Positions 3,000-39,385 of a stretch of DNA of 64,000 nt are shown here, one piece after another. Each line of letters opens with the position of its first letter. Position 1 is the stretch's first letter. The DNA comes from Mesodorylaimus sp. YZB2_4 (taxonomy: Eukaryota; Nematoda; Enoplea; Dorylaimida; Dorylaimidae), in contig JASANH010000799.1 in the NCBI GenBank assembly GCA_030248295.1, positions 1-64,000 of the forward strand, in the 5' to 3' direction. The notes beneath the pieces were generated by a model. The model saw only the letters and a program-made list of their open reading frames with translations, searched no databases and was not told the DNA's origin. The translations under genes were made by a program, and so were the position numbers.

Positions 3000-3599
3000 G
3001 TTTTATTGGGTGATCTTTTTAAAAATTTTTAAGGGTGGTTAACGCCGCTGTACATGCGACTCGGTCGCAATTCATACATTTTGTTAATATAAACAAAAAA
3101 ATATTTGTTTTTAACATAACTGATAAACTTTTCAGTCGCCAAAACTTAAAATTCAAATTAGCTAGTAGCAGTAGAATTATTGGGAAAACTTGTGGTGTCA
3201 TGCGACGACGAGGGAGAAAAGTCTATTAACATCTGAATCACAATTTGGAAAGCGCGCCTGCTGGAAGCCAGAAGGAGTTGACAACGGCGCACTCCGGCAT
3301 GAGAGATGGTTAGATATATTTTATGTTTGCCTGTATCTCACGCCCATTCCAGGTTCCTGAACTAACCTCTTGTGATTTGAGAAGTCTGACAATTCATCTA
3401 GCTACAGTCTATAGCCCGGAAAGGCAGCATGGTTTTCTTACAAAAGAGAAAGACTCCACGGCAAAACAGACAAGCCGTAGCCAAAGTCAAATCAAGACAA
3501 TAATTCAGGTATATGCCCTATTGGGTGCAGAAATTTTCTAATTCTCACAAGCTGTGAGAACGGGGGAAAAGCCTTATCATCTCGAAAATTATTTTGGTA

Positions 3600-4377
3600 T
3601 ACCCTACGTTATTCCAGGACCACGGACGGGTGGAATATGGGCGATATCGCCCAAGGGGAGGAAGTGCAAATCATTTTTGGCTTTTGCATCACCATACCTT
3701 CGGCTGCTTTCTGCCAGACCAGGGGAATCAGGCAAGGGTGTCCTTTATCCGCCCTCTTGTATGTCCTAGTATTTGAGACAGTCGCCAATTATATAAGAAG
3801 GGACACGGGTGTAAAAGGTATTGACGTGCTAGGGCATGAGCTAAAAATTAGCAATCATGCTGATGATACAAATTTTTTGGTGGCGGATACGGATTCAGTG
3901 AAGCAGATATTTTGGGTGTATGAAGAATTCAGGAAAGCATCAGGAGCGACACTAAAGAGAGGAAAAACCAAAATCATATGCCTTGGAGTAAAGGGTATTT
4001 CCGAGATAGACGAAGAGCTGGGACAGTTTATGACGGAGAAAAAAATAGTTTATGGGTTTTGGATCTCGCGAAGCGGATTGGAAAATAACGACAACTGGGT
4101 GGCAGTCCGTTAGCACATAGGGCAGCTAAGTAGCAAAGTACCCCATAAAGAGATCTCTTATTTTGGTAGGATCCATGTTGCCAGCACATACTTTCTCTCG
4201 AAAGCATGGTATTTGGCATCAATAATTGCACCTGAGAACGAATTTCAGAGATTTGTAGAAAGGCAAATTGATGGATATCTTTGGTATCCTTAAAAAGTGA
4301 GTATGATAAATAAGTGCATTCTGAAGAGAAGCAAGGAGCAGGGTGGGATAGCCTACCCTGATGTAGGCTACAAAGCA
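3600..4377 (+). pseudogene. LINE reverse transcriptase fragment, 5' part
   Basis: The frame from 3637 to 4113 reads through reverse transcriptase motifs: RQGCPLSALLYVLVFE, then HADDTNFLVAD at the catalytic YADD position (Tyr replaced by His, both Asp kept), then a KTKIICLG block. This layout is typical of L1/Tx1-type ORF2. The endonuclease and most of the fingers domain are missing upstream, so the copy is 5' truncated. A stop at 4111 and later frame changes break it. It is interrupted at 4378 by a Tigger-like element and resumes at 5091. Confidence 0.8.
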
Positions 4378-7739: not shown

Positions 7740-9590
7740 CGAGTGTGTGTTCATCGAGCTTCTGGAATATGGCCTCAGCCCTCGAGTGCGTGGCTTTGGA
7801 TAGAATATGAGATGACACGTCGCTGATAATCACCACTAATGGTACGTATACGTATAAGACCGCTTGGGCCCTGAGATATGTATGTTGGGTCCGCGAGCTC
7901 CGCCCTACTCACTCGTACAATTTAGTGTCCTACGAAGATTGTGCTTACACTTTCGCGCGTGCTGCAAGAATACTGCTGTCCGCCAACGAATCTACATTCG
8001 TTCAGTACACACCGATGCTATCCAAGAACAAAGAGCCATATTTCATCGATCTTCTTCATCAATCACTGATTAGTGATTAAATCATCATGTAAACCTTCGA
8101 GTATTTTTAACCGAATTTACCCGATCTTTCAGAGAATTTGTGACTTCGCTGTGACGCAGGCAACTTGAGTCGAATGCGCAGACATAAAAGACATATTCAG
8201 GGGAAGCTGTCATAATCATGGGTCAAAATGATAAAAAAAGCGAAATGATGTAATACTTGAAATTTAATCATTACGCGTAATCCTTTTCATTGATTTTAGT
8301 CGACAGATTCGCTTAATCAATGTTAGGTGCATTATCTTGTCTCTTTGTGCACAGGTAACGTTAAGAACTTTGGTCGATCATTATTATAAGAGCTACATAA
8401 AATATATGCTAATTAACTTCGCTATATGTTCAGACTTGGCTCGATCATGTTACTCCTTTTGATAAGCAGGCGGATAACACTTTGTTGGATTCTAAATCAA
8501 GGGTCCCTATTCAAATATGGCTAATTATCATTCCTATTGACTGAGAAATTTTAATTACTACTACTATGTCATGGAAATTCCGCACTTGTATGGGGCTTTA
8601 TATATAAAAGGCAGCATGCTATAGCAATATATAGTATTGTCGTGTTGATCGCTAGATAAGTTACAGCGAGCTCCGTAATATCAGGGGCTCTTTTAGAGTC
8701 AGTAGTTCACACCTGTCGTTCCCTACTTTTCACTACGGTTAAAAGATAACATCTGATTTATCTGGGAGTTATCAAAAGAAATTCAAATACCATAAAAGCT
8801 CCTTATATGTTACAAAATCATTTTGAAAATTTGTTGCGGTCTTTTGCGTGCTGTTGGAAAGCTAACTTTTCTAACCTTTTCTAGGATCTAATGCTATTCT
8901 TGCTTGCTTGAAAATTCTTGACAAGTATTGGATTAAAAACCCTATAGATTCCGCTATGCCCATGTGATTCATGGAGCTTTTGACAAAAATGCAAACTTTT
9001 GTTATTGCCTCACCAACTCTCGTATCGCATCAGCATCTCCTTTCAAACCTTGAAACAAATTTCAATATGAGCTTGGAGAAACAAAATGGAGTTTTAATTT
9101 TCTGCTCTCACATCCTGATGCTAGAATTTACTGACACCTGTTAAAAAGTTAATACACCAAGCCGAAAATTACTCGTAGCAGGAGCTCTAGTAATTTCTCT
9201 GGACACCTGTCTTGTGAAATGCAGTTCGAACTTCTTTTTCACCACTATTGCTTGTTCTCGTCAGTGAAAATTTGGCTCGCTAACGACAAGGGCGCTTGCC
9301 GAAACATGACATAAGCCACATGAACAATCTCGTAATTAGTGCAAGATACGTTGTGCGCCTTTAACACTTCTCTATGATTCTAACGTTAAAACGGTCGGGA
9401 GGGTTACCTAGCAACAAAACAAAGGTTCAAATCTACAGTTTGGCGGCTCTGGGAGCATGCGAACTGATAATTAATATTTAAGTCCCAATATGCTATATTT
9501 GTTCCTTTCGACGTGAATACCCATCTAACTACAGTATACTCTAACAACCTTTAAAAAGTTTTGCCCTTTTTTACGTAGATACTGGTGTCA
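7740..9590. other. No gene seen
   Basis: AT-rich intergenic DNA between the SINE-like repeat and the second receptor gene. The region just before 9592 has a splice acceptor-like run ending in AG at about 9578, so a 5' UTR exon of that gene could lie here. Confidence 0.4.
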
Positions 9591-9591
9591 C

Positions 9592-10590
9592 ATGGCCAAC
9601 TCGACAAATCATTCAATCCCACGCCACGTGGATATCATAGTGGCTACAGTCGAATACTTTTTCTGCACAGCTGGTATCATAGCCAACTTTTTTGTGTGTT
9701 TCACAATTATGCGTTATCGTAAAACCACATTTTCTAACACTTTCTATACTTTGGCTGTAGCACTGGCCGTCCCGGATTGTGTTCACTTATTCACAGAATT
9801 GGTGTGCGCCCTGCCCGCCGTGTTCTATGGTCTCGAGGACACCCCGAAATGGTTCCTCAATTCGTGCGGCTACTTTGCAGATGTGTCATTTTGGGCCATC
9901 GCCCCTTTAATGTTGGTCATAGCAGTCAATCGTTACGTGGCCGTGTGTCACTTTGAGACTTACAAACGCGTTTTCAGTCAAAAACGGATTTATATGCTGA
10001 TTGGATTCTGTTTTATTTTTTGTTTTTTCATGCCCTCAGTTATGTACGGGTGCAAATGTTATTACGATTTCAATTACGCTTGGTTGTTTGTATGTTACGA
10101 AGGCGGGTGCAAGGATTTCGCACTAAATTTCAATGCCACAATTTGCAACAGCATATGTTTGGGTGTGGCTCTGATATATGTCATGATTTATATCCAACAT
10201 CGGAGAATCCAACGTCGCGTCGGAACCAGCTTGCAATCGGAAGATGATCGAAAACGACGAGCCAAGGAATCCAAACTTATGTTTCAATTCGGTCTCATAT
10301 CCTCAGTTTTAATAGCGTATCAAATATTTTTTTGGATATTCCTTTTCTGGGCCACCAACGAGCCAAGCGAAATGGTTTTGAATTTCTTCGTTAATCTCAA
10401 CAGCTGCATCAGTCCATTCCTGTATTTGACCTTCAGCTCAGAAATTCGAAGTCGACTACCATGGAAAACTCAAAGTACGCATCACGGCACGCTGACAAAC
10501 ACACCAGTTACGGTGGCAGCCACGAACATTCATGTTCGCGAAGTGGAAAACAAATCATCGAGTAAGGCAGTGGAGAAGAATAAAAAATGA
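9592..10590 (+). CDS. Seven-transmembrane GPCR, paralogue of the first
   Basis: A 332-residue single-exon receptor with the same seven-helix plan as the 1986-2981 gene: NRY after TM3, SCISPFLY in TM7, an NST site at the N-terminus and a basic third loop. From residue 41 to about 282 I count only two differences (Lys207 to Gln, Cys280 to Phe), and the DNA is almost identical there. Residues 1-40 differ at about ten positions, and the tails after residue 285 hardly align. The start fits well (CACATGG). The pair is a same-strand duplication about 7.6 kb apart. The ligand is unknown, and Srsx membership is inferred from general features. Confidence 0.85.
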   Translation: MANSTNHSIPRHVDIIVATVEYFFCTAGIIANFFVCFTIMRYRKTTFSNTFYTLAVALAVPDCVHLFTELVCALPAVFYGLEDTPKWFLNSCGYFADVSFWAIAPLMLVIAVNRYVAVCHFETYKRVFSQKRIYMLIGFCFIFCFFMPSVMYGCKCYYDFNYAWLFVCYEGGCKDFALNFNATICNSICLGVALIYVMIYIQHRRIQRRVGTSLQSEDDRKRRAKESKLMFQFGLISSVLIAYQIFFWIFLFWATNEPSEMVLNFFVNLNSCISPFLYLTFSSEIRSRLPWKTQSTHHGTLTNTPVTVAATNIHVREVENKSSSKAVEKNKK

Positions 10591-18669: not shown

Positions 18670-18780
18670 CTTACTGTTGAGGCTTGTTAGGAAAGCTGTG
18701 TTGTCCGCCTTTTTTAGTCAGGGCCAGACTGTAGATCGCAAACGGAATCTGGGCCGAGTAAGGGGCTCGGTTCAAGACTT

Positions 18781-19500
18781 GGATTGAGGACTGGCCTTGT
18801 GGATTGAGGACTGTCCTTGTGGATTGAGGACTGGCCTTGCGGATTGAGGACTGTCCTTGTGGATTGAGGACTGTCCTTGTGGATTGAGGACTGGCCTTGT
18901 GGATTGAGGACTGTCCTTGTGGATTGAGGACTGTCCCTGTGGATTGAGGACTGGCCTTGTGGATTGAGGACTGTCCTTGTGGATTGAGGACTGGCCTTGT
19001 GGATTGAGGACTGGCCTTGTGGATTGAGGACTGTCCTTGTGGATTGAGGACTGGCCTTGTGGATTGAGGACTGTCCTTGTGGATTGAGGACTGGCCTTGT
19101 GGATTGAGGACTGTCCTTGTGGATTGAGGACTGTCCTTGTGGATTGAGGACTGGCCTTGTGGATTGAGGACTGTCCTTGTGGATTGAGGACTGTCCTTGT
19201 GGATTGAGGACTGTCCCTGTGGATTGAGGACTGGCCTTGTGGATTGAGGACTGTCCTTGTGGATTGAGGACTGGCCTTGTGGATTGAGGACTGGCCTTGT
19301 GGATTGAGGACTGTCCTTGTGGATTGAGGACTGGCCTTGTGGATTGAGGACCGGCCTCGTGGATTGAGGACTGGCCTTGTGGATCGAGGACCGGCCTCGT
19401 GGATAGAGGACTGGCCTTGTGGATCAAGGACCGGCCTTGTGGATTGAGGACTGGCCTTGTTGATTGAGGACCGGCCTCGTGGATTGAGGACTGGCCTTGA
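18781..19500. repeat. Minisatellite, 36 x 20 bp
   Basis: Exactly 36 tandem units of GGATTGAGGACTGGCCTTGT and close variants (720 bp). Three main types differ at the GG/GT and TT/TC positions: G (CTGGCC), T (CTGTCC) and C (CCGGCC). In order they read GTGTTGTTGTGGTGTGTTGTTTGTGG and then TGCGCGCGCG. The block of units 4-14 recurs as units 17-28 with one added T unit, and C-type units alternate with G-type only at the right end. The minus strand is open in all three frames and gives 290- and 263-codon frames with a 20-residue period. I regard these as by-products of the repeat. Confidence 0.97.
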
Positions 19501-19509
19501 GTTCCTCTG

Positions 19510-20690
19510 TACCTGAGCACATTGGTCAATGGCCCGCCAGAACCACACTGCTGACAATACCACTTACTGAGCTGCGTCGAGTTCAAGCTTGACGCGCTCC
19601 AATGATACCAAGGATTAGCACGACTACCACTCAGACTAGAGTTTTGTGTGTTCTACTCCTGACCAGGTAGTTTAGAGTATATACTAGGAGCACCTCGACG
19701 AGGGCATTCTGGATCAGACGGCTCCCACAGATGACAATATTCTGCATATTTTTTGCAGTCAACCACCACGCGCAGCACATTCCCTGTCTGCTGCTCCACT
19801 AGGAGCACCTCCAGACATGGGATCCTGGGCCTAATCTAAAGCATTTCGCTCGGAGAACCTCGACTGGACCAGGTTAGTCACCCACGGCCAGGCGAGCAAT
19901 GTCATCGAGGGTTTATTGTTCGCAAACCGACATCCGTAACCGCATAAATTAAAGCTGAGGCATGTCCAGCAAGCTACCTATCACAGTGAGCAATACGGGT
20001 GCACTAGGCCAATGCCGATCCGCTGCACCATGCCGCCACTTACGCGCGATTCCGCTCGCCTCTTTTTCTGATTCTCACAAGGAAACATCACCAACCGTCG
20101 AGTCGAAATTTGAGAAACCTAAAAATTGCTATATAATCCTGGGTGCAAACGAAAGCTATGTGCAAAATATTAGAGGAGTCTGGCAACCTGGTCAGCACTG
20201 GTCAGCGTCTTGTGTAAAATTCCCGAATTTTTGTGTCTTAACGAAGCTGAGCGTAAAGAAAAACCTGCAGAATTCTCTCCAAACTCGGTTTTTGTGTTCG
20301 AAGTTTTGATTTTAAGCTTTCAACACTCGAAAAAAACCAAAACATCCAGCAGAATTCGAAAATTCCACTGTACTCTGAGTGCTGACCTGCACTGACCAGT
20401 CAGCCAGACGCCTTAAATATTTTTCACGGAGCTTTCTTTTTCACCCAGGAACAAATTACAATTTTTGGTTTTCTAAAATTCGACCTGAAGGTTGGCGATG
20501 TTCCCTTGTCAGTTGGGTATAGCGCACGGTATATACTGTATATGATAATGCGAACCAATTCCAAAAATTCACCACTGTGCTAGAAAAATCCAGAAATTTT
20601 CACCTGGTTACAATAACCTAAACTACAGCATAAAAACAAGTCTTTAGCCCAACAGTAATGACTCGAAGAAAAAAACGTTGTCTCACTTTT
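19510..20690. other. No gene; dispersed-repeat traces
   Basis: Around 19790-19940 the sequence resembles 42715-42860 and 1400-1620 (GGAGCACCTC and AACCGAC..CCG..ATAAATTAAA-type blocks), so a dispersed repeat is present. Around 20440-20515 it resembles 50080-50150. No coding region is recognised. Confidence 0.4.
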
Positions 20691-29640: not shown

Positions 29641-29645
29641 GAATT
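29641..29645 (+). repeat. Candidate 5-bp target duplication GAATT (left)
   Basis: GAATT directly precedes the terminal TACGGAAGG. The same pentamer follows CCTTCCGTA at 39381-39385. Confidence 0.6.
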
Positions 29646-29965
29646 TACGGAAGGTTATTTTGATATTATTCAAAATTCTTCGGTTTTTGATTTTTTGATT
29701 GTTTTTTCTTCGAACCAACACCGTTCGGACCTCGTTTTTTCAAAAATCAAAATTTTTTTGATTCTTTTCAAAAAGGTTTTTGATTTATTCAAAAGTTTTT
29801 TGATTTAATCAAATTAATCAAAACTTTTTTGATTTTTTGATTAATTTGTCTCAGAATTTTCGCCGCTAAGAAACTTTTCTCGGATAATTATTTCAAAAAT
29901 CAAAAAATTTTTGATTTAATCATGTCGTCCTGTAGCGGCTTGAAACCATACTTTACCTAGTGCTG
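29646..29965 (+). repeat. Left terminal inverted repeat of large TE
   Basis: AT-rich arm with runs of TTTTTTGATT-type motifs. It aligns with the reverse complement of 39002-39380 from the tip to the inner block GCGGCTTGAAAC...CTAGTGC. Small indels in the T-rich centre make the arms unequal in length. Confidence 0.9.
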
Positions 29966-30819
29966 ATAATCCCGTGTTAGTTTCCCGCCAACTTGGCGGG
30001 GGGGATGAGCGAGCAAATTTACTGAATTCTCGAATTTTCGCGAAGCCTTTTGCCCAAATACGTACATATACCGGCTTTGTTGAATTCTCGCAGTGTCTGT
30101 GTAGTCAGTGTTTGCCAAGTATGGCCAACAATAACGATCAAATTGACGTTGAAGGTGTCTTACGAGGGCGGTGCACTAAGAGTAATTGTCCTTGTCCTCA
30201 GTACTATCGGCGAGTGAATTCGGTTTCTTGCAATTGCGGGCACACTGGAATCCATCACGTAAGTGATCATTGTATGGTTATACGGGAAAAGACATGTGTG
30301 TGTTTGTGTATCGGGTGAATAAAGCATTGTTGTGTTCCAGGTTGCGCTTTTTTGTGCCGTGGGGCGGCTTAGAACGATGAAATTTGCGATTGTCAAGGTT
30401 TCAAGCCACCACCAGCTTCATTCTCTGAATGTCTCAGCTGTGGTCATGAGTTGATCCTGCATGGTACATCCCCGGGAACGAACACTGCTGGTTCGGGAAA
30501 ACTTTTGACAAATCATCACGGAGCAACAGCTGAAGTAGCAAGTGGTGGTGTCGGAGAGGGCGGCACCTGAGGCATCCGCTGTTTGAATTCAGGTGATGCT
30601 TTTTCGAGTACTAGCACCCCCATGTGATGGTGCAATCGATCTTTGCACTCCAAAGTGTTTTGAGTTTTTAGCGTATTCCGTTATTCGAGATATCGTCAAC
30701 GAGCAAAGACAGTCCGATTACGCTAAAAATGTTGTCTTGGAAGGAAATCGTAGCACTCGCGGCGGATATGGTAGAGGTAAAGGTTCTGGCGGTCGCAGGC
30801 CTGGAGCTGGCCGCAAGCC

Positions 30820-32733
30820 CGGTCACGGCCAACTGGACGCGGTCAACTGGGCGCTGCCAGCTGGCCGACGGCCAACTGGGCGCTGGCCAACTGGACGTTA
30901 GACCAACTAGGCGCTGGTCAAATAGGCGCCGTTAAACTAGGCGCCGAGCCATCTTGGCGCTAGGGCGCAGAAAGCAATTAAAAGGGCGCGTGGTAATTAA
31001 AACTACTTTTTAGTTCAATGTCACTCGTGATTATTTGTGTACTTGTCCAAGAGAAAAGATAGCACTCGCTAAAAAACGACAATATCACTCCATGCGATAA
31101 TTATGAGACAAACCACGAAGATACTCAACCAAATTATTACGCTCATAGGCAATCACCTTATTTAAAATGCGCTGATCAGCTTCTTCGTACCGCGGACGTT
31201 TTCGCGCTGGTTCATGACCTCCAACGAATCGCTCGTACTCGGCGTCGAACCCCTTTTGTAATTTCTTTAAAAAGCTAATGAAAGTCCACAAGTTTGGATG
31301 ACTGACTCCAAATCCTAGCTGAAGTTTTTGGTGGCAAGCTTCCGAAAAATTATTGGTTCGATCATTACCAGCTATTGTACGTTCATAAACATTCCAGACA
31401 GAATAAGGAAACGTTGGTGGGGCCCGCGTGCCATTATTTCGCAGACGACCGACATACGTATTGGTGAACCAGCCGATAATAGGATCCAAATCTTGAGGCA
31501 GCTGCTCTTCTAGAACATTGAGTGCTGTGGTAACGTCCTCCTCTGGAACGAATGCAACTGACGTGACCATTCTTGCTTGAAGAGAGAACTCAGCGTCTGT
31601 GCTGTAACGGCCCAGAAGATGCGAAGATGCCAAATGCTTTCGCAAGTTTTGCACCAAGTGGAAAAAAAAATCCCCTGATTTCGGCATCTGGATACTCGAT
31701 GCGCAGAGCCTGATGAATAGCGAGCTCATAATCCACATTGATCGCTTCGGGACTGAAAAGCGGCCACGTTTCACGAATCATTCGAAATAACTTTGAATAG
31801 GTTTCCATCGATTTGTTTGGAAGCAGGCAAAACATGACTGGGAACACAAATCCCCTGTCTCTTCTAGCCAGAATAGCGAAAATTTGGCTAAATAGAGGTG
31901 GTGACAGAAGAAAGGTACCGTCCATAAATATTTCTTTCATTTGATTGCTCCACGTCTCATTGTATGCACGGCCAAAAATCAGTATACGTTGCTCATCACC
32001 AATTCCAGAATCAGCCAACAAGAATAATTTGTTCACACCAGGCGTTGATTCGTAATGAGCATAGTTGTCTGGGACAACTATGTCTTGCCGATTTTGTGGA
32101 TTTGGATTCGCGGGCTGGTCATTCTGGCGTTTGCGGCCAACCAGCTTTGGAGTCGCATTTGTACTGGGAAATTGACCCAAAGCTGCAATGGAGGCATTTT
32201 GAATGGCTTCAGCTCGGATCTGGGCAGGATTTTCCATCGTGGCTTCAGCGCGTCGCTTGATCCTCGATACAATCTTTTGGACTTCGACTCGCGTGGCGTC
32301 ACCAGCAGCTGAGCAAGAATGATTCGTTCTAAGGGAATGGAATGTTCCATCCTGACGTGTCCAAATTCGACCTTTACAACCGATGCTCTTCTTTTCGCAT
32401 CTCCAATAAATAATTGCGCCGTCTGAGCTTTCTTTATCCTTTACATAAATATATCCGCCTAGATCATATTTGGCGAAACCACGTTGTGATTCAATACCAT
32501 TCATGGCAAAAGAGAAAAGTTCTGACCGCAGCACGAGTGATGGCCACATATAGACTGATAATGAGTCAATTCGTACAAGGCAGGACGAGGCCAGCGCCAA
32601 ATTGGCCAGCGCCTACGTAGCTTGGCGCCCAACTGGAATCGCCTACTTGGGCAGCGCCTAGTTGACCTAGCGTCCAGTCGGCGGCGCCCAGATGGCCAGC
32701 GCCCAGATGGCAGCGCCCAGTTGGGGTGTACCG
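30820..32733 (-). mobile_element. MULE (Mutator-like element), 1.9 kb
   Basis: Flanked by a perfect 9-bp duplication CCGCAAGCC (30811-30819 and 32734-32742), the usual size for Mutator-like elements. Ends start CGGTCACGGCCAACTGGACG (left) and, in complement, CGGTACACCCCAACTGGGCG (right). Both subterminal regions carry several degenerate copies of a GCCAACTGGGCGCTG-type motif, in opposite orientation at the two ends. It holds one transposase gene on the minus strand and sits inside an exon of the HECT gene. Confidence 0.92.
31085..32504 (-). pseudogene. MULE transposase with FLYWCH domain, one frameshift
   Basis: I take the ATG at 32504. Residues ~7-70 form a FLYWCH-type zinc domain (GGYIYVKD, IIYWRCEKKSIGCKGRIWT, LRTNHSC). 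The MULE transposase core follows: IFMDGTFLLSPPLFSQIFAI (first Asp), then FPVMFCLLPNKS, then INVDYELAIHQAL (second Asp). At about 31670, near a T/A run, the frame shifts; the expected CFFHLxQxLRKH block continues in the other frame as FHLVQNLRKHLA and runs to 31085 through AFVPEEDV and NNFSEACHQKL. Only this frameshift separates it from an intact gene of about 470 codons, so the insertion looks recent. FLYWCH plus MULE is a known domain pairing in animal genomes. Confidence 0.9.
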
Positions 32734-33280
32734 CCGCAAGCCAGCACTGGTACTCGAAAAAGCCGGAAGAGTGAGTTTCTTTCTTTATGTGCGTACACCA
32801 CGATATTTTCTGTTGACTAACTGCTGCTTTATTTAGAAAATTGCAGTGTCGCCTGTCAAGAAAGAAGCCGGGAAACCGACTCTGACTAGAGTTGGTTTTA
32901 GCCTTGCTGTAAGTATGTAAGAAGTTATGAAAAAACGATATTCAGAACTCTTGTTGTACCTGGCTGGGTAAATCAATAAGTTTGACTGGAATCCATGATA
33001 AATCTGCATCCAAGTCCTTGATTGCAGCAGATACTGTAAGTCAGAGCCAATCAGATCACCGTCAAGGCTGACTTCACGATACCCGAATTAAAACTTTTGT
33101 GCTTACGTGAATTTTCTCGCGAAATGAAGATTCCGTTGACGGAGACTTGCGAGGAAAAGATATATCGTAAAACGTTTGGCTTAGAGGTTTTTGACGATGC
33201 GACTGGGGCAGACCTGAAGTTCAATTCGCGCTATTATTTTAACTCTGAAGTAAGTTTTTCATGTTAATTTAACAGTATGG

Positions 33281-33704
33281 CAGGGTTCCCACCGCCCTCT
33301 AAGTCCCTTTTAAAAATCCCCTAATGCTCCCTAAATTAAAAGTGGCCGTTGGACGGACACTCTACAGCCATGGGCCATTTTTGCCAATTTAATGGACCTA
33401 GCAGCCTTTTTGCTGAGTGAACCTGCCATCTGCCAAGTTATAAGTGTTCTGCCCATATAAGGGAACGACAAGTTTGAAAAGGAAGGGAAGGGACAGAAAA
33501 GAAATCAGTTGCACAGGAAACTGGAATAAATGGATAAGAAAGAAATGAGCTTGCTTGGAATCTTGCTAGCTGGTTTGAAGGCTAATAAGTAGGATATAAT
33601 GGCAGACCTTTCATGGTAAACTTTACTTAGCCTGCAGCTCTGGGCCTGGAATCTAATATCTGAAAAACTCTGCTCTAAATCCTATCAAGGTGGCGGGAAT
33701 CCTG
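33281..33704. mobile_element. MITE with CAGGGTTCCCACC ends, in HECT intron
   Basis: The left end is CAGGGTTCCCACCGCC; the right end is the complement of CAGGATTCCCGCCACC. It belongs to the family seen at 41914-43880. Flanking GTATGG and TTATGG may be a degraded target duplication. It lies within the intron between exons ending at 33249 and starting at 33748, so it need not affect the protein. Confidence 0.75.
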
Positions 33705-36189
33705 TTATGGATTTATGATATAGATAATATCTGCTGTCACTTTTTAGTTCAATCCGATTCCGAAGTACGCAGCGAAGCGTTCGTCAAGAGTTGGTCTCGA
33801 AATTGAAAGTACGGACGACAACTCTTGCATCAGCGATGACGATTATGATCCTGGTGTCAAGCGGCGAAGGGATGGTGGAGCGGAAGGATATCAAAGGAGC
33901 CCCAGTCATGAAGTCGATAATATGAATAATTTCATGATTGTGGAACCTGATGTCGAGGACGATTTCGCTGTCGACGGAACGTCAATGTCGTCGGCAACCA
34001 GTGCGAAACCGAATCCGCAGGCGGAGGGCTTAAGAAATATCGTGGAAACTTACAACATTTCGGATGAGTTAGCCAGCGTGATTTTGGAATTTTGCTCCAA
34101 GAACTTAAAGGACGCCAACGAGCTGCTAACTAAAGGTAAAAGGCATGAAATTGGTTTTTTTGTTAAACCTCTGTAATATAAGAACACCTGGTCTTACGCT
34201 TATCTTATAGCCATTGATATTATTCTTGTTGCAGTTTTGTGCGGCGGTCCTAATCGAAAAGACGTTGTCAAAGCAGTGCATCGTTTTTACGCGTTTGGCG
34301 AACGACGCGACGAGGAATTGGGTAACGGCGAACATGTTTTCATTGGGCTTCGTCATTATAAGAAGGAAGGTCTGTCGTTACGGGATCAAATTTTGCTTCA
34401 ATGGAAATCAAAGAAAGACCGGCTAAATGAGAAACCGCTCGTCAAATTCGATGAAGGGGTCGGCGATGGACCAACAAATACGTATTTAGAATCTATACGC
34501 GAGGAGGTCTTGATGCCCTTGTTTGAAGGTGAGTAGTTACTCAATCGCAATGGTTTGACTAGTATGGAAAAACCCCAAGCGCCTCCAGATGCCGCCCGAG
34601 AATTCCAAGCTGTTATTTTCCCAACCTTGTGCGCTTGCTTTCATGGCTGCGTCATTTTGTTTTTTAGGCACTGACGATCATATGATTGTGACGGCAGCAA
34701 CAGACGATTTGATGGAGCGTATGTACTGTATCATCTCGGTGGTCAATTTATGGGCCATATCGTCCGTCACGGCCAAGCAATCATGCCCGGTTTAGCGCAA
34801 GCCATGAAATGCGCTTTTCGGGGAATTGAAGTTGAGCAACTCTATGCCGCGCTGGAAGATTTGCCGTCGTTCGATTTGCAACAGCTGTTGAAAAAGGTCA
34901 GTTGACAATTGAGACACGTAGTGTGAACTTACTGTGCTCTATTGACAAACTATCCTTTAGGTATTAAGTGGTAATGAAGAATTGACCAACGTGGAAAACG
35001 ACGACCTGACCAATTTGATTAACGACAGTGGTATAAAATCTGGCGTTAGCTGGGTTTATCCGACTGCCAGTTGTCGAGGATTTTTTAAAGTCAAAGTCGA
35101 CGAAAGCGATGCTGTCGTTGAGGCAATTGTTCAATACATTGTTCTTTCAAAAGAGCGGCCCAGATCCGACAATTACGCAAGCATCTTGTGGACATATCTT
35201 TTCTGACTCCTGAGGGAATCTGCCAGATTCCAGAAACCAGATTCAATCTGGTTTGTGAGTCAAGGGAATTAAATTGTGCAATCTGTTATTATATTGGGAT
35301 CTTCCTCTATAAAATTTCCCTTTCACTTGGTGGATTCGAAAGTATCTGCAAGCTGCAGTCGTTTCTGTCCATCTGCGGTGGCACGGGTGGAAGTGAAATC
35401 GCTGACATCTTGATCGACGCATATTTTCCAAAAATTAATGACTGTACAATTGGAAAAGATCAGATCTCGAAAATGATTAGCGTTGAGATCACTGAGGAGG
35501 AGGACGAGGAGTATTCTGACGCGTTGCACGAGCAGCTGATAAAAATAATTGACCAATTGGATGAAGGTAAGTGAAACTAGCAGGCCTCTTGCCAATCCAT
35601 TGATGTAATGCCACTGTGATGTAAGGCTCGAATCAATCGTGCAACCCGGATGTCGATGTAGTTTACTTCCAGATGACCCCTACGCAAAGCACCTCAGGGA
35701 CTGACTCACATAGGACCAGGGCTTTAGATGCATTCTTCGGCATTCTTCTTCGAAATGATGCATTCGGTTTAGGCTAGATGCGTTCTTCGTCGAAATGTCT
35801 TGCCTACATACATAGGCATGAGAACAGGGCATTTTTATATATGCGACGAGGCATGTGTGCGTAAATGTCATCGCACTGTGGGCGCTGAGCGGTAATCAGT
35901 TACTTATGTGGCCGATAAATAGAATTCCCTCCTTTTTAGACCCAAAAGGAACACAATCGGTCTCGAAGTTTATGCAGTTACTGACGGGATGTGCTAGTGT
36001 GCCTTTGGACACCACAATCACGTTCAGATTTGCGGACTACTGCGATTTCAAGGTCAACGTTTGTTCAAAAGCGGTCGATGTGAACAAAAATTGGTTTGAA
36101 TCTGAACAAACGAAGGAACTGTTTGTGAAACATGTATTGCATGAGGTGAGGACGGGGTACCAAATTTATACACGGTGCTAGATGGCGTG

Positions 36190-37560
36190 AGAGCATGTCG
36201 GTCGATTTTCACCTGGTCTACCACGGCAGTCTTGATAGTTAGGATTTCAATTTTTGCTTTAAGGTTTAGACCAAAGTACTAGCGTTTCGCTGTTTTTTTT
36301 ACCAAAATACCAAAATGCTGTTTTGGTTTGAGATCAAAGTTAATCAGCCGTATATTTGCAGGACTATCATATGTGAGTGTCATAGAAATGATCTTGTCGA
36401 AGATACCATAATAAAGCGTTATGTCATTTTGGACTTCGGTAGGTACTCCTAGCCACACCACACCGGACACCAGTTGGGTCGAGACCAGAAGGCATGCGGG
36501 GCTCTCTTAAAGATGATGGCTGTGCCATACATTCCAATAGGGCAAAACGGGGGTCGAATCGGTCTCCCAGGATGCCACATACAGTACCTACATTGGATGG
36601 TGTGTTATCCCAAACATGCCAGAAGCCTCCTTGCCTTGCTCCAGTCAAAGTTTTTGTCTCGCCGGCCAGATGCAATCTGTTCTACAGCCCTTGTGTGTGA
36701 GTGTTGTGTGAGCGTCGTGAGCGTCCGTCTCGCTCGACACGCTCATGAAGCTTGGCTGCCACCACTCGACCGCACGCAACGACTCTCGCCGACAGAATGA
36801 GGACCCAACCCCAAACTGCCATCTAGTTGGGTTGTCATTGTAAAGACTTGCGTGGAGCTTGTTGGTTGGCTGAAAATGGGACTTGACGTGATTTGGTGTA
36901 AAGGCGATTGTGGTGTGGTTTTTGCGCGCCCTCACTGATGCAAGCAGTGCCTGATGTTGAAAGTGCGTCGGGCATGGCAACAAAATAAGGGGCAAGCAAG
37001 CATCTGACGTGCACGGCAGAATCACGGACCGCCTGGGCTTAAACTCGCAGTATTCCTGACGGATTTGGCGATCAGGTGGTTGACGCTGTAACCCTCGTGC
37101 CTGGTAGGCCATGGCGAGTAAGAGAGAGAGCAATCTAGGGCTGACCAGAGGATGGCCTTAGATTGCTCTTTCCCCCCTGGCTGGTGAAATCCTTGGCTCG
37201 CCCTAGGGCAATCTAGGGCTGACCAGAGGATGGCTCAAGCCACAGGAACCAACCCACGCAGTCCACGGACACCTTGCGATATCGTTTATTGCCACCACAC
37301 CACAAGGGCCGTGTAGACTCACAATTCAGGGAGCAGCCGCACGTGTCGGCCGTCACAGGGGTTCTGACGGACCTGAGCCCGAAGTGGTCACAGAGCAAGT
37401 TCACCCAGGAACTCTAGGCCAGTTCTCTACCGATGCCTGCAAACCAAACCAGACACTCGACCTCGCTCTCGGTCTCGTGCCGGCCCTGACGTCGGAGAGA
37501 GGGATCGGTTCCCTGAACCTGGCTTGTAGTAAGCAGACTCGCAAATTGTAATGTAATGTA
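36190..37560. other. Spacer between the two TE genes, with repeats
   Basis: No gene recognised. AATCTAGGGCTGACCAGAGG occurs twice in direct orientation (about 37133 and 37210). The end, GTAATGTAATGTAATC at 37549-37562, looks like the short tandem tail of a retroposed sequence, so a SINE-like insertion may fill part of this spacer. Confidence 0.4.
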
Positions 37561-37565
37561 ATCAG

Positions 37566-38884
37566 TCACTGTGGGAAAACGTGAGCCGATACGACTCTTC
37601 CGCGACGTTTACCTCCGAAGTGTTCAGGCACATTGTATAAATCGTGCGGCTGACCGCCAGGACGAATTCGACCTTTCTGAGCACGTATTGTGTGCATATT
37701 GTGGTCCAAAACTGCGCGGTCCAAATCGGAATTGATTAGAGGCAGGTAAACGGACACTAACGCCCAGCGATCCACAATGTCACCAGTCCATAGACCTTCC
37801 TCCTCCAAATCGATAAATTCTTGATGCCAATACAACGTGCACATTTGACGCAAGCGACGCCACCAAGCTTCAATTGTGACATTGCGTACGGAATATGTCC
37901 ACGAATGGTGTGATGCGGGATTACGATCGGTTGAGTGAAACAAAGCTTGAAATCTTGCAACCATCGTCGATTCTCTCCCAAAATCCGACACCACCGTAAC
38001 GGGCACAACTGAAAGGCACAAAAAGCAATAACCAAAACTGAATATGTATTTTGAATTTAGAATATAATTTAGATATAGGATTTATTTTAGATTATCTTGG
38101 ATTTAAAATATATTTTAGATCTACGCACCACCATATTTTCTTAAGGCACTGAGGTAATAAGCTCCAATGATCTCAGACTTCCTATTATTGACGAATGCCT
38201 TCGCCCACATAATATGCCTGGAATATTCGTCGATGCAAGCGTGGAAATAAATGTCATACTTCCCAAGTTTGTCGTGCCCATCTTCGGACCATCGGTAATT
38301 TGGACCCTACAAGCAGAGTTCGTGGAATGCAAAGCTTGTGGCGAGAACGGAATAAAAAATCCTTACTGGACAATAACGCATGCATCGTGCCCAAGGAAAC
38401 TTCCTAGCTGCTTCGAATGTCCTTTGTGTCCTCATCGATGACAGAACGGCCCTGACGGTACGCCTACAAAGTGAAACATAGTCATCCTATATATTTCATC
38501 TGGTCTTTGCGCCATACTGACTAACAAATAAACCATGTCGATTTCTCAAAGCATTGTGAATTAATCGATAACCAGCGTTCATCCCGGGACCACTTTGTTC
38601 GAGTTCGATGGCGTTTGCAATCGCAGCAGGCGGTATGTATGGATCATTTCGTTTGATTCCAAATTTCTTAAGCTTCTTTCTAAGTGTCGCCACTCTTGAA
38701 AGGAAAAAACAGAGAAATAATTTTACAATGGATCACTTTTGTATTCGATTAACAATCGAAGACTAAATTTTGCGCACTTTATCACAATGCCGAAATTCTT
38801 CTTCAAGTGGGCCAGAATCACTTCATGCCTCTTTCCTTGGCGTACTAGGTCCACCAAAATAGGCTTGAAAGCTTCTTCCTCCAT
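37566..38884 (-). CDS. DDE integrase/transposase of the large TE (five exons)
   Basis: Exons on minus: 38884-38778, 38694-38518, 38463-38367, 38306-38129 and 38008-37566, all with GT-AG introns (55-120 bp) and matching phases, giving 333 codons with no stop. The N-terminal part reads VATLRKKLKKFGIKRND and GMNAGYRLIHNALRNRHG, the helix-turn-helix region of IS3-like enzymes. The core follows: GPNYRWSEDGHDKLG (first Asp), IYFHACIDEYSRHIMW, VVSDFGRES (second Asp) and VRNVTIEAWWRRLR (Glu). The C-terminus, HTIRAQKGRIRPGGQPHDLY, matches related animal 'integrase core domain' proteins. The coding sequence appears intact, unlike the HECT partner. It probably cuts and joins the TE ends. Confidence 0.9.
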
Positions 38885-39001
38885 GAATCACGAAAGAAAC
38901 TGATCAACAAGTATCTATAATATGGACAGACCGTCTACAACCGGCTGCTATAAAATAAAATAAAATATCTATGTATCTACCGTGGGACCGGATCAGTTTT
39001 C

Positions 39002-39380
39002 GCACTAGTTAAAGTTTTGTTTCAAGCCGCTTACGACAGAACGACATGATTGAATCGAAAACTTTTGGATTTTTGAAAGAATTATCCGAGACAATTTTCT
39101 TCGCAGCGAAAATTCTGAGGGATTAGTCAAAAAACCAAAAAAGTTTTGATTAATTTGATTAAATCAAAAAATTTTGAATAAATCAAAAAAATTTTGAATA
39201 AATCAAAAAAATTTTCAATAAATCAGAAAACTTTTCAATAAATCAAAAAACTTTTCAATAAGAATCAAAAAAATTTTGATTTTTGAAAAAACGAGGGCCG
39301 AACGGTGTTGGTTTGGAGAAAAAACAACCAAAAAATCAAAAACCGAAGAACTTTGAAAAATATCAAAATAACCTTCCGTA
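39002..39380 (-). repeat. Right terminal inverted repeat of large TE
   Basis: Inverted counterpart of 29646-29965. Short AATAAATCAAAAAA(A/C)TTTT units are tandemly expanded at 39170-39260, making this arm longer. Open frames over it are low-complexity artefacts. Confidence 0.9.
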
Positions 39381-39385
39381 GAATT
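39381..39385 (+). repeat. Candidate 5-bp target duplication GAATT (right)
   Basis: Follows the terminal CCTTCCGTA and pairs with 29641-29645. The next bases (ATTGACTGC) resume the split hAT MITE. Confidence 0.6.

Follow-up and report, generated by a model that had tools for sequence, protein, structure and literature searches.

An IS3EU-like transposon family of a dorylaimid nematode in which a DDE transposase gene is accompanied by a HECT-like gene

IS3EU transposons, as characterised in passages of PMC10045372, have TA..TA ends and usually generate target duplications of 6 bp. Fungal IS3EU elements bearing TET genes are described in parts of PMC12730594 as ending in TAYGG..CCRTA and as carrying an alpha-kinase gene opposite the transposase. 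Ginger1 elements, whose target duplications are put at 4 bp in a passage of PMC10045372, occur with OTU or Ulp1, and in a section of PMC2836005 the authors proposed a role for the ubiquitin pathway in transposition. We report here an element that pairs an integrase-type DDE transposase gene with a gene resembling HECT ubiquitin ligases, found in 64,000 nucleotides from the nematode Mesodorylaimus sp. YZB2_4 (assembly GCA_030248295.1, contig JASANH010000799.1, positions 1 to 64,000 of the forward strand; hereafter, the window). It probably represents an IS3EU-type lineage in which the HECT-like accessory gene has been kept by selection and may favour the lineage's own multiplication.

Judged by its sequence, the closest known kind is IS3EU. 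Its transposase is of the integrase type and, on inspection by eye, shows no HHCC zinc motif upstream, and its termini (TACGG..CCGTA in the window and in the copies on C259, C566, C443 and C25) are of the TA..TA form and fit the TAYGG..CCRTA given in part of PMC12730594. It departs from IS3EU in carrying a HECT-like gene and in making 5-bp duplications rather than the 6-bp ones given in the cited passage of PMC10045372. The latter difference counts against the assignment, and the element is therefore named IS3EU-type or IS3EU-like, not classed as a member. As in the fungal TET-bearing elements, a second enzyme gene lies on the strand opposite the transposase; there, in the portion of PMC12730594 concerned, it is an alpha-kinase with TET/JBP in between, whereas here it is HECT-like, and in one subfamily the position in between is taken by a RING-like/CCHC gene. 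The likeness to Ginger1 is that of an integrase-like transposase tied to the ubiquitin/SUMO system, but the Ginger1 proteases, as presented in part of PMC2836005, remove ubiquitin or SUMO and are domains of the transposase, whereas the protein here is the product of a separate gene and resembles an ubiquitin-adding enzyme. Among open PMC articles, none was found containing both IS3EU and HECT, and no element of such a kind was evident from titles and the opening parts of abstracts; the words HECT and ubiquitin occur 0 times in the main texts of PMC10045372 and PMC12730594. PMC4255032 proved unrelated, its main text being without HECT.

The window lies on the contig labelled C368 in our analysis, and labels of this type are used below for the other contigs; the genome searched comprises 145 Mb in 1067 contigs. 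Positions 29646-39380 of the window form a single transposon of 9735 bp, with termini TACGG..CCGTA, bounded as follows.

29641..29645, no strand: left target site duplication, GAATT, 5 bp (sequence)
29646..29963, plus strand: left terminal inverted repeat (TIR), beginning TACGG (sequence comparison)
39002..39380, minus strand: right TIR, ending CCGTA (sequence comparison)
39381..39385, no strand: right target site duplication, GAATT (sequence)

The TIRs are about 320-380 bp long, and their outer 168-bp block is 92% complementary (29646-29963 against 39002-39380). A first-pass annotation made from the letters of the window had proposed one TIR-bounded element with matching GAATT flanks, and on both points it was right. 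The two genes are convergent, the DDE integrase on the minus strand and the HECT-like gene on the plus strand at 30121-36145. A sister copy at C259:81525-90118 shares 97.6-99.1% identity with window positions 32733-36981 and 91.8% with 29645-30819, and because of this second, highly identical copy the arrangement in the window is not due to chance. Neither copy is fully intact, and that in the window is an old, decayed member of its transposon family.

The transposase gene of the window was modelled as follows.

38778..38884, minus strand: integrase exon 1, with start codon (spliced alignment)
38518..38694, minus strand: integrase exon 2 (spliced alignment)
38367..38463, minus strand: integrase exon 3 (spliced alignment)
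38129..38306, minus strand: integrase exon 4, with the first catalytic D (EDGHDKL) (alignment)
37584..38008, minus strand: integrase exon 5, with the second catalytic D (SDFG) and the E (NVTIEA), C-terminus truncated (alignment)

The five exons (38884-37584) have GT-AG introns, and their frame stays open and free of frameshifts as far as the stop codon at 37568-37566, as had been claimed for an integrase with intact frame; that description needs amending at the C-terminus, which ends 61 residues earlier than that of C259 because about 470 bp of C259 sequence are absent from the window. Pfam recognises PF24764 (E=1.1e-28) and, under its cut-off, rve (5.7e-5). The catalytic D, D and E are invariant in all five subfamilies aligned, the C510 locus having been left out as too degraded. 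The C259 transposase has, in spliced alignment, 12 frameshift positions and one stop. Relatives of the integrase number 55, those with a named source being from animals and fungi; viral contigs scanned with the integrase alignments gave no confirmed match.

The second gene was modelled on the opposite strand by comparison with other copies.

30121..30258, plus strand: HECT-like exon 1, Cys-rich (CTKSNCPCP..SCNCGHTGIHH), with GTAAGT donor (comparison with copies)
30341..30534, plus strand: exon 2, second half of the Cys-rich part, one base shorter than in C259
30593..30819, plus strand: exon 3, first part, interrupted by the nested MULE (comparison)
30820..32732, minus strand: nested FLYWCH+MULE transposon, not the element's own (Pfam FLYWCH 6.9e-9, MULE 6.5e-8)
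32743..32770, plus strand: rest of exon 3, beyond the duplicated 10 bp (comparison)
32837..32908, plus strand: exon 4 (comparison)
33055..33249, plus strand: exon 5 (comparison)
33748..34135, plus strand: exon 6, acidic linker (comparison)
34235..34528, plus strand: exon 7, where the HECT-like part begins (comparison)
34668..34896, plus strand: exon 8, exceeding that of C259 by 5 bases, with a frameshift at about 34722 (comparison)
34961..35176, plus strand: exon 9, with a frameshift near 35145 and GC in place of the donor GT at 35177 (comparison)
35343..35566, plus strand: exon 10, start uncertain (the C259 acceptor is altered here) (comparison)
35940..36145, plus strand: exon 11, resembling a C-lobe and holding the putative catalytic Cys (NVCSKAVDV) (profile alignment)

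The last five modelled exons make up the part that resembles a HECT domain; a terminal exon was not found in either the window or C259. The HECT ligase-like gene claimed for this strand is thus present, with a frame broken by the MULE insertion, two frameshifts, the shortened exon 2 and the altered donor, and with a resemblance to HECT domains that is remote. The nested transposon sits within exon 3, is absent from C259, and has a MULE domain and a FLYWCH finger. Its target duplication of 10 bp, GCCGCAAGCC, occupies 30810-30819 and 32733-32742 and is in the 9-10 bp range of MULEs; the imperfect terminal repeats of this insertion are rich in CAACTGGGCGC units. In C259 the HECT-like gene has 11 exons, one of them with a changed donor, and an open frame of 808 residues, and the HECT-like parts of C443, C1054 and C444 are open and spliced, with four GT-AG introns each. 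The Cys-rich first exon recurs at 60% identity in C540 and C578, 51% in C443 and 43% in C1054. The C443 match (E 2.8e-4) lies about 250 bp inside the right TIR, and C1054 (E 0.007) and C1011 (E 0.02) have weak first-exon matches ahead of their HECT-like parts. First-exon-like matches were also seen at C766:12587-12727 and C36:787038-787193 (E 0.02 and 4.7e-6), in both cases preceding, by 0.7-0.9 kb and on the same strand, an integrase match and not a HECT-like gene, and at C83:339274-339699 and C862:6059-6199, where neither gene was found.

Searches of the genome revealed at least 33 HECT-like and at least 31 integrase loci, these counts being lower bounds from which repeats and some weaker rows were left out. 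Twelve integrase/HECT-like pairs lie within 12 kb of each other (on C368, C259, C566, C540, C486, C712, C1054, C444, C766, C443, C287 and C518), where 0.17 would be expected from random placement, and all twelve are convergent; two further pairs on the same contig are 25-29 kb apart and not convergent. Seven more contigs weakly match the C566 HECT-like query (E 6.6e-4 to 0.02), four of them with an integrase (C444, C1054, C766 and C443) and three with none (C46, C1011 and C19). Two further copies have clear boundaries. That at C566:15526-26918 is bounded by 1712-bp TIRs with 99.6% identity and by the duplication ACAAG, with one stop in the HECT-like part and one in the transposase; that at C443:6483-15823 has TIRs identical (100%) over at least 395 bp and the duplication GCAGT, with an open HECT-like domain and no stops or frameshifts in the aligned part of the transposase. 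In view of their near-identical TIRs both copies look young. With the duplications ATTAA at C259 and ATTTG at C25, target duplications are of 5 bp in all five informative insertions (the window, C259, C566, C443 and C25); C101 is uninformative in this respect because it is set in a run of G, and for C10 and C486 the reading covered one end. The copies at C25:354721-355692 and C101:122234-123218, the latter within the G run, are non-autonomous, about 1 kb long, and have ends of the C443 type. The long TIRs of C566 (15526-17237 and 25208-26918) include the first transposase exons, and the HECT-like exons are therefore preceded by a sense copy of the N-terminal part of the transposase; nothing on C566 matched the HECT-like gene's Cys-rich first exons.

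The idea of a coherent element, present in several copies with both genes inside its TIRs, is borne out by C259, C566 and C443. Alternatively, two nested or adjacent elements might be involved, one with the integrase and the other with the HECT-like gene; the window does after all hold a nested transposon, and unpaired loci of both genes exist. This is most improbable, however, since the same genes stand convergently within one TIR pair at the different target sites of C259, C566 and C443, near pairs are convergent in 12 cases out of 12, and the trees of the two genes agree (see below). Some features of the family do tell against a lineage that has kept both genes. HECT-like loci are unpaired in 21 cases and integrase loci in 19, and the first-pass annotation had named HECT-less integrase copies as what would speak against its proposal; one of the 19, on C528, still keeps a first-exon-like remnant. 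The surroundings were read for two of these 19 loci (C208 and C528) and the other 17 are known from the genome search only. As far as the transposase extends, C208 and C566 agree at 99.8%, and in the 1.4 kb covered beyond it they share only an 88-bp piece; the C208 copy may have been truncated or its interior replaced. C528 is rearranged; its remnant, which contains C.CGH, resembles by eye the Cys-rich first exon of the HECT-like gene, and no HECT-like domain occurs within the 3 kb covered. Also, C486 and C712, and likewise C1054 and C528, may be two haplotypes of one insertion, so that the 12 pairs are perhaps not independent.

The HECT identity of the second gene rests on profile comparison. 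The target profile for hhalign was built from five host HECT domains together with NEDD4 and E6AP segments from PDB alignments, the host HECT exons on C60 and C167 being left out. A profile of six subfamilies matched it with Prob 90.1 and a score of 53.4, against at most 20.7 for 100 column shuffles, 18.6 for the reversed profile and 22.4 for an integrase profile. The C-lobe alone gave Prob 83.9 and a score of 39.2 (no more than 19.9 in 100 shuffles). Every one of the six subfamilies has the presumed catalytic Cys; it falls at the homologous place of the C-lobe in the hhalign alignment, and it and the preceding TG motif align in register. Homology of the C-lobe to those of HECT ligases such as NEDD4, E6AP and G2E3 is thus well supported, and the proteins of C443 and C1054 end near SFG/GFG, as do several host HECT proteins. 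Homology of the part before the C-lobe is less well supported: by itself this part reached 6%, with a score of 28.1 over 33 columns against no more than 21.3 for shuffles.

The last value is one of several results that weigh against a HECT identity. The match was clear only at the third profile comparison, that with six subfamilies: two subfamilies had given 16% with a score of 31.8 (30 shuffles, at most 22.5), and three had given 17%, with C444 alone at 0.3%; the degraded rows C234 and C807 were used in these two earlier profiles and dropped from the third. The Pfam HECT domain, at E<=10, matched none of the five subfamily proteins scanned (the C566 protein lay outside the scan). A genome search with PF00632 recovered only ordinary HECT genes and none of the element loci, and the HECT-like protein had no relative in word-based searches of 5.8 billion proteins. 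Pfam likewise detected no HECT on single window exons, nor at E<=10 on the spliced C259 model; a PDB sequence search with the HECT-like part gave chance-level hits only (best E 0.08), and tblastn of one HECT-like exon against phages gave no match. The second gene might accordingly encode an unrelated, element-specific protein whose C-terminus is HECT-like by chance and which perhaps works with the transposase in a structural or DNA-binding role. The want of a Pfam match, the 16-17% obtained with two or three subfamilies, and the variable residues preceding the Cys (NVC, HVC, RVC or HAC, with HTC only in C766) would fit such a protein. The score of 53 (90%) with six subfamilies, when all controls stayed at or below 22.4, the 84% for the C-lobe alone, and the Cys and TG motif aligned in register argue otherwise, and we regard it as unlikely.

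The HECT-like gene differs from the HECT E3 ligases named above in being too divergent for Pfam and in having Cys-rich N-terminal exons without a Pfam match. G2E3 has PHD/RING-type fingers N-terminal to its HECT domain. In its N-terminal half the C259 protein matched no Pfam model, PHD fingers included, and fingers of the G2E3 type were thus not detected. The suggestion that such elements help to explain G2E3-like gene copies in animal genomes found no support, the PF00632 genes lying on contigs other than those of the elements, save on C19, where the distance to an element-type match is about 117 kb.

Substitution estimates between subfamilies, made by the NG86 method, bear on whether the second gene is functional. 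Synonymous (pS) and amino-acid-changing (pN) values for the HECT-like gene are 0.75 and 0.26 for C259/C566 and 0.78 and 0.33 for C443/C444; deeper pairs reach pN values of up to 0.47 at pS 0.74-0.77. For the transposase they are 0.78 and 0.23 for the window/C208, 0.85 and 0.27 for C443/C444, and 0.81 and 0.34 for C444/C1054. Ratios are not given, except for C443/C1054 (0.25), because synonymous change is at or near saturation. With amino-acid change limited against near-saturated synonymous change, both genes are, on these estimates, constrained between subfamilies. Gene trees of five subfamilies, in which the C208 transposase stands for the C566 subfamily and that of the window for C259, have the same topology for both genes (supports 0.97-1.00), and the pairwise identities of the two genes correlate at 0.97. 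Since both genes are constrained, the trees agree and the Cys-rich first exon recurs, the HECT-like gene looks like an old, retained component and not a recent capture. Among close copies the ratios are 0.46-1.2, as for inserted copies drifting neutrally, which detracts from the case for selection. The HECT-like gene might then be passive cargo, a host gene fragment captured once and carried without function, as its escape from recognition by Pfam, the broken state of several copies (that of the window included) and the existence of unpaired copies could suggest. Such cargo would hardly be expected to show open, spliced HECT-like parts in C443, C1054 and C444, amino-acid change as limited relative to near-saturated synonymous change as that of the transposase, a gene tree agreeing with that of its neighbour, and a Cys kept in six subfamilies out of six; we consider this explanation distinctly unlikely.

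In the subfamily of C566, C486, C712 and C540 a further gene lies between the other two.

C566:22442-23468, transposase strand: RING-like/CCHC gene (Pfam)

It comprises a RING-like exon (best E 2.6e-5, below the curated cut-offs), zf-CCHC in three stretches (6e-10) and, by eye, a coiled-coil-like stretch. There are 18 matches to it at E<=1e-5, on C566, C486, C712, C540, C843, C93, C403, C872 and C725; other element sequence is present on seven of these nine contigs, in two of them just as short matches to the TIR query. The gene was not found in the window or in C259. If it encodes a RING ligase, this subfamily would possibly carry two ligase-like proteins.

Taking the element as a lineage with a selected HECT-like gene, a plausible working scheme may be proposed. 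The transposase would bind the TIRs and make staggered cuts of 5 bp, as the observed duplications suggest. Each TIR may supply the promoter for the gene starting just inside it, a plausible role given that the starts of the two genes adjoin opposite TIRs on the inner side and that the genes converge. In what would be the least certain steps, the HECT-like protein might accept ubiquitin on its Cys and modify a nuclear target, whether the transposase, a repair factor or a silencing factor, to the benefit of the element's multiplication. A broader version, to which we would give somewhat less than an even chance, is that a HECT-type ligase co-evolves with the transposase across at least five to six subfamilies, and in one with a RING-like protein, and rewires host ubiquitin signalling (silencing, repair, transposase turnover) for the element's own multiplication. 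Known transposon cargo includes OTU and Ulp1, which remove ubiquitin or SUMO (in part of PMC2836005), and TET, which acts on methylated DNA (in part of PMC12730594). A conserved ligase-like partner of a transposase would, if confirmed, add the activity opposite to that of OTU and Ulp1, and would make the older suggestion of a role for ubiquitin in transposition directly testable. It would also call for caution in annotation, as divergent HECT-like genes of animal genomes may in some cases belong to transposons.

Outside the element, the window contains two chemoreceptor genes of the Srx type that closely resemble each other, one at 1977-2981 (Pfam 2.3e-21) and one at 9529-10590 (1.1e-20); the family is typical of nematodes, in line with a nematode host. 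A reverse-transcriptase fragment (RVT_1, 4.2e-9) lies at 3481-4113, and minisatellite-like repeats at 18671-19652, with units such as STRPVLNPQGQSSIHKASPQ, are open in three minus-strand frames.

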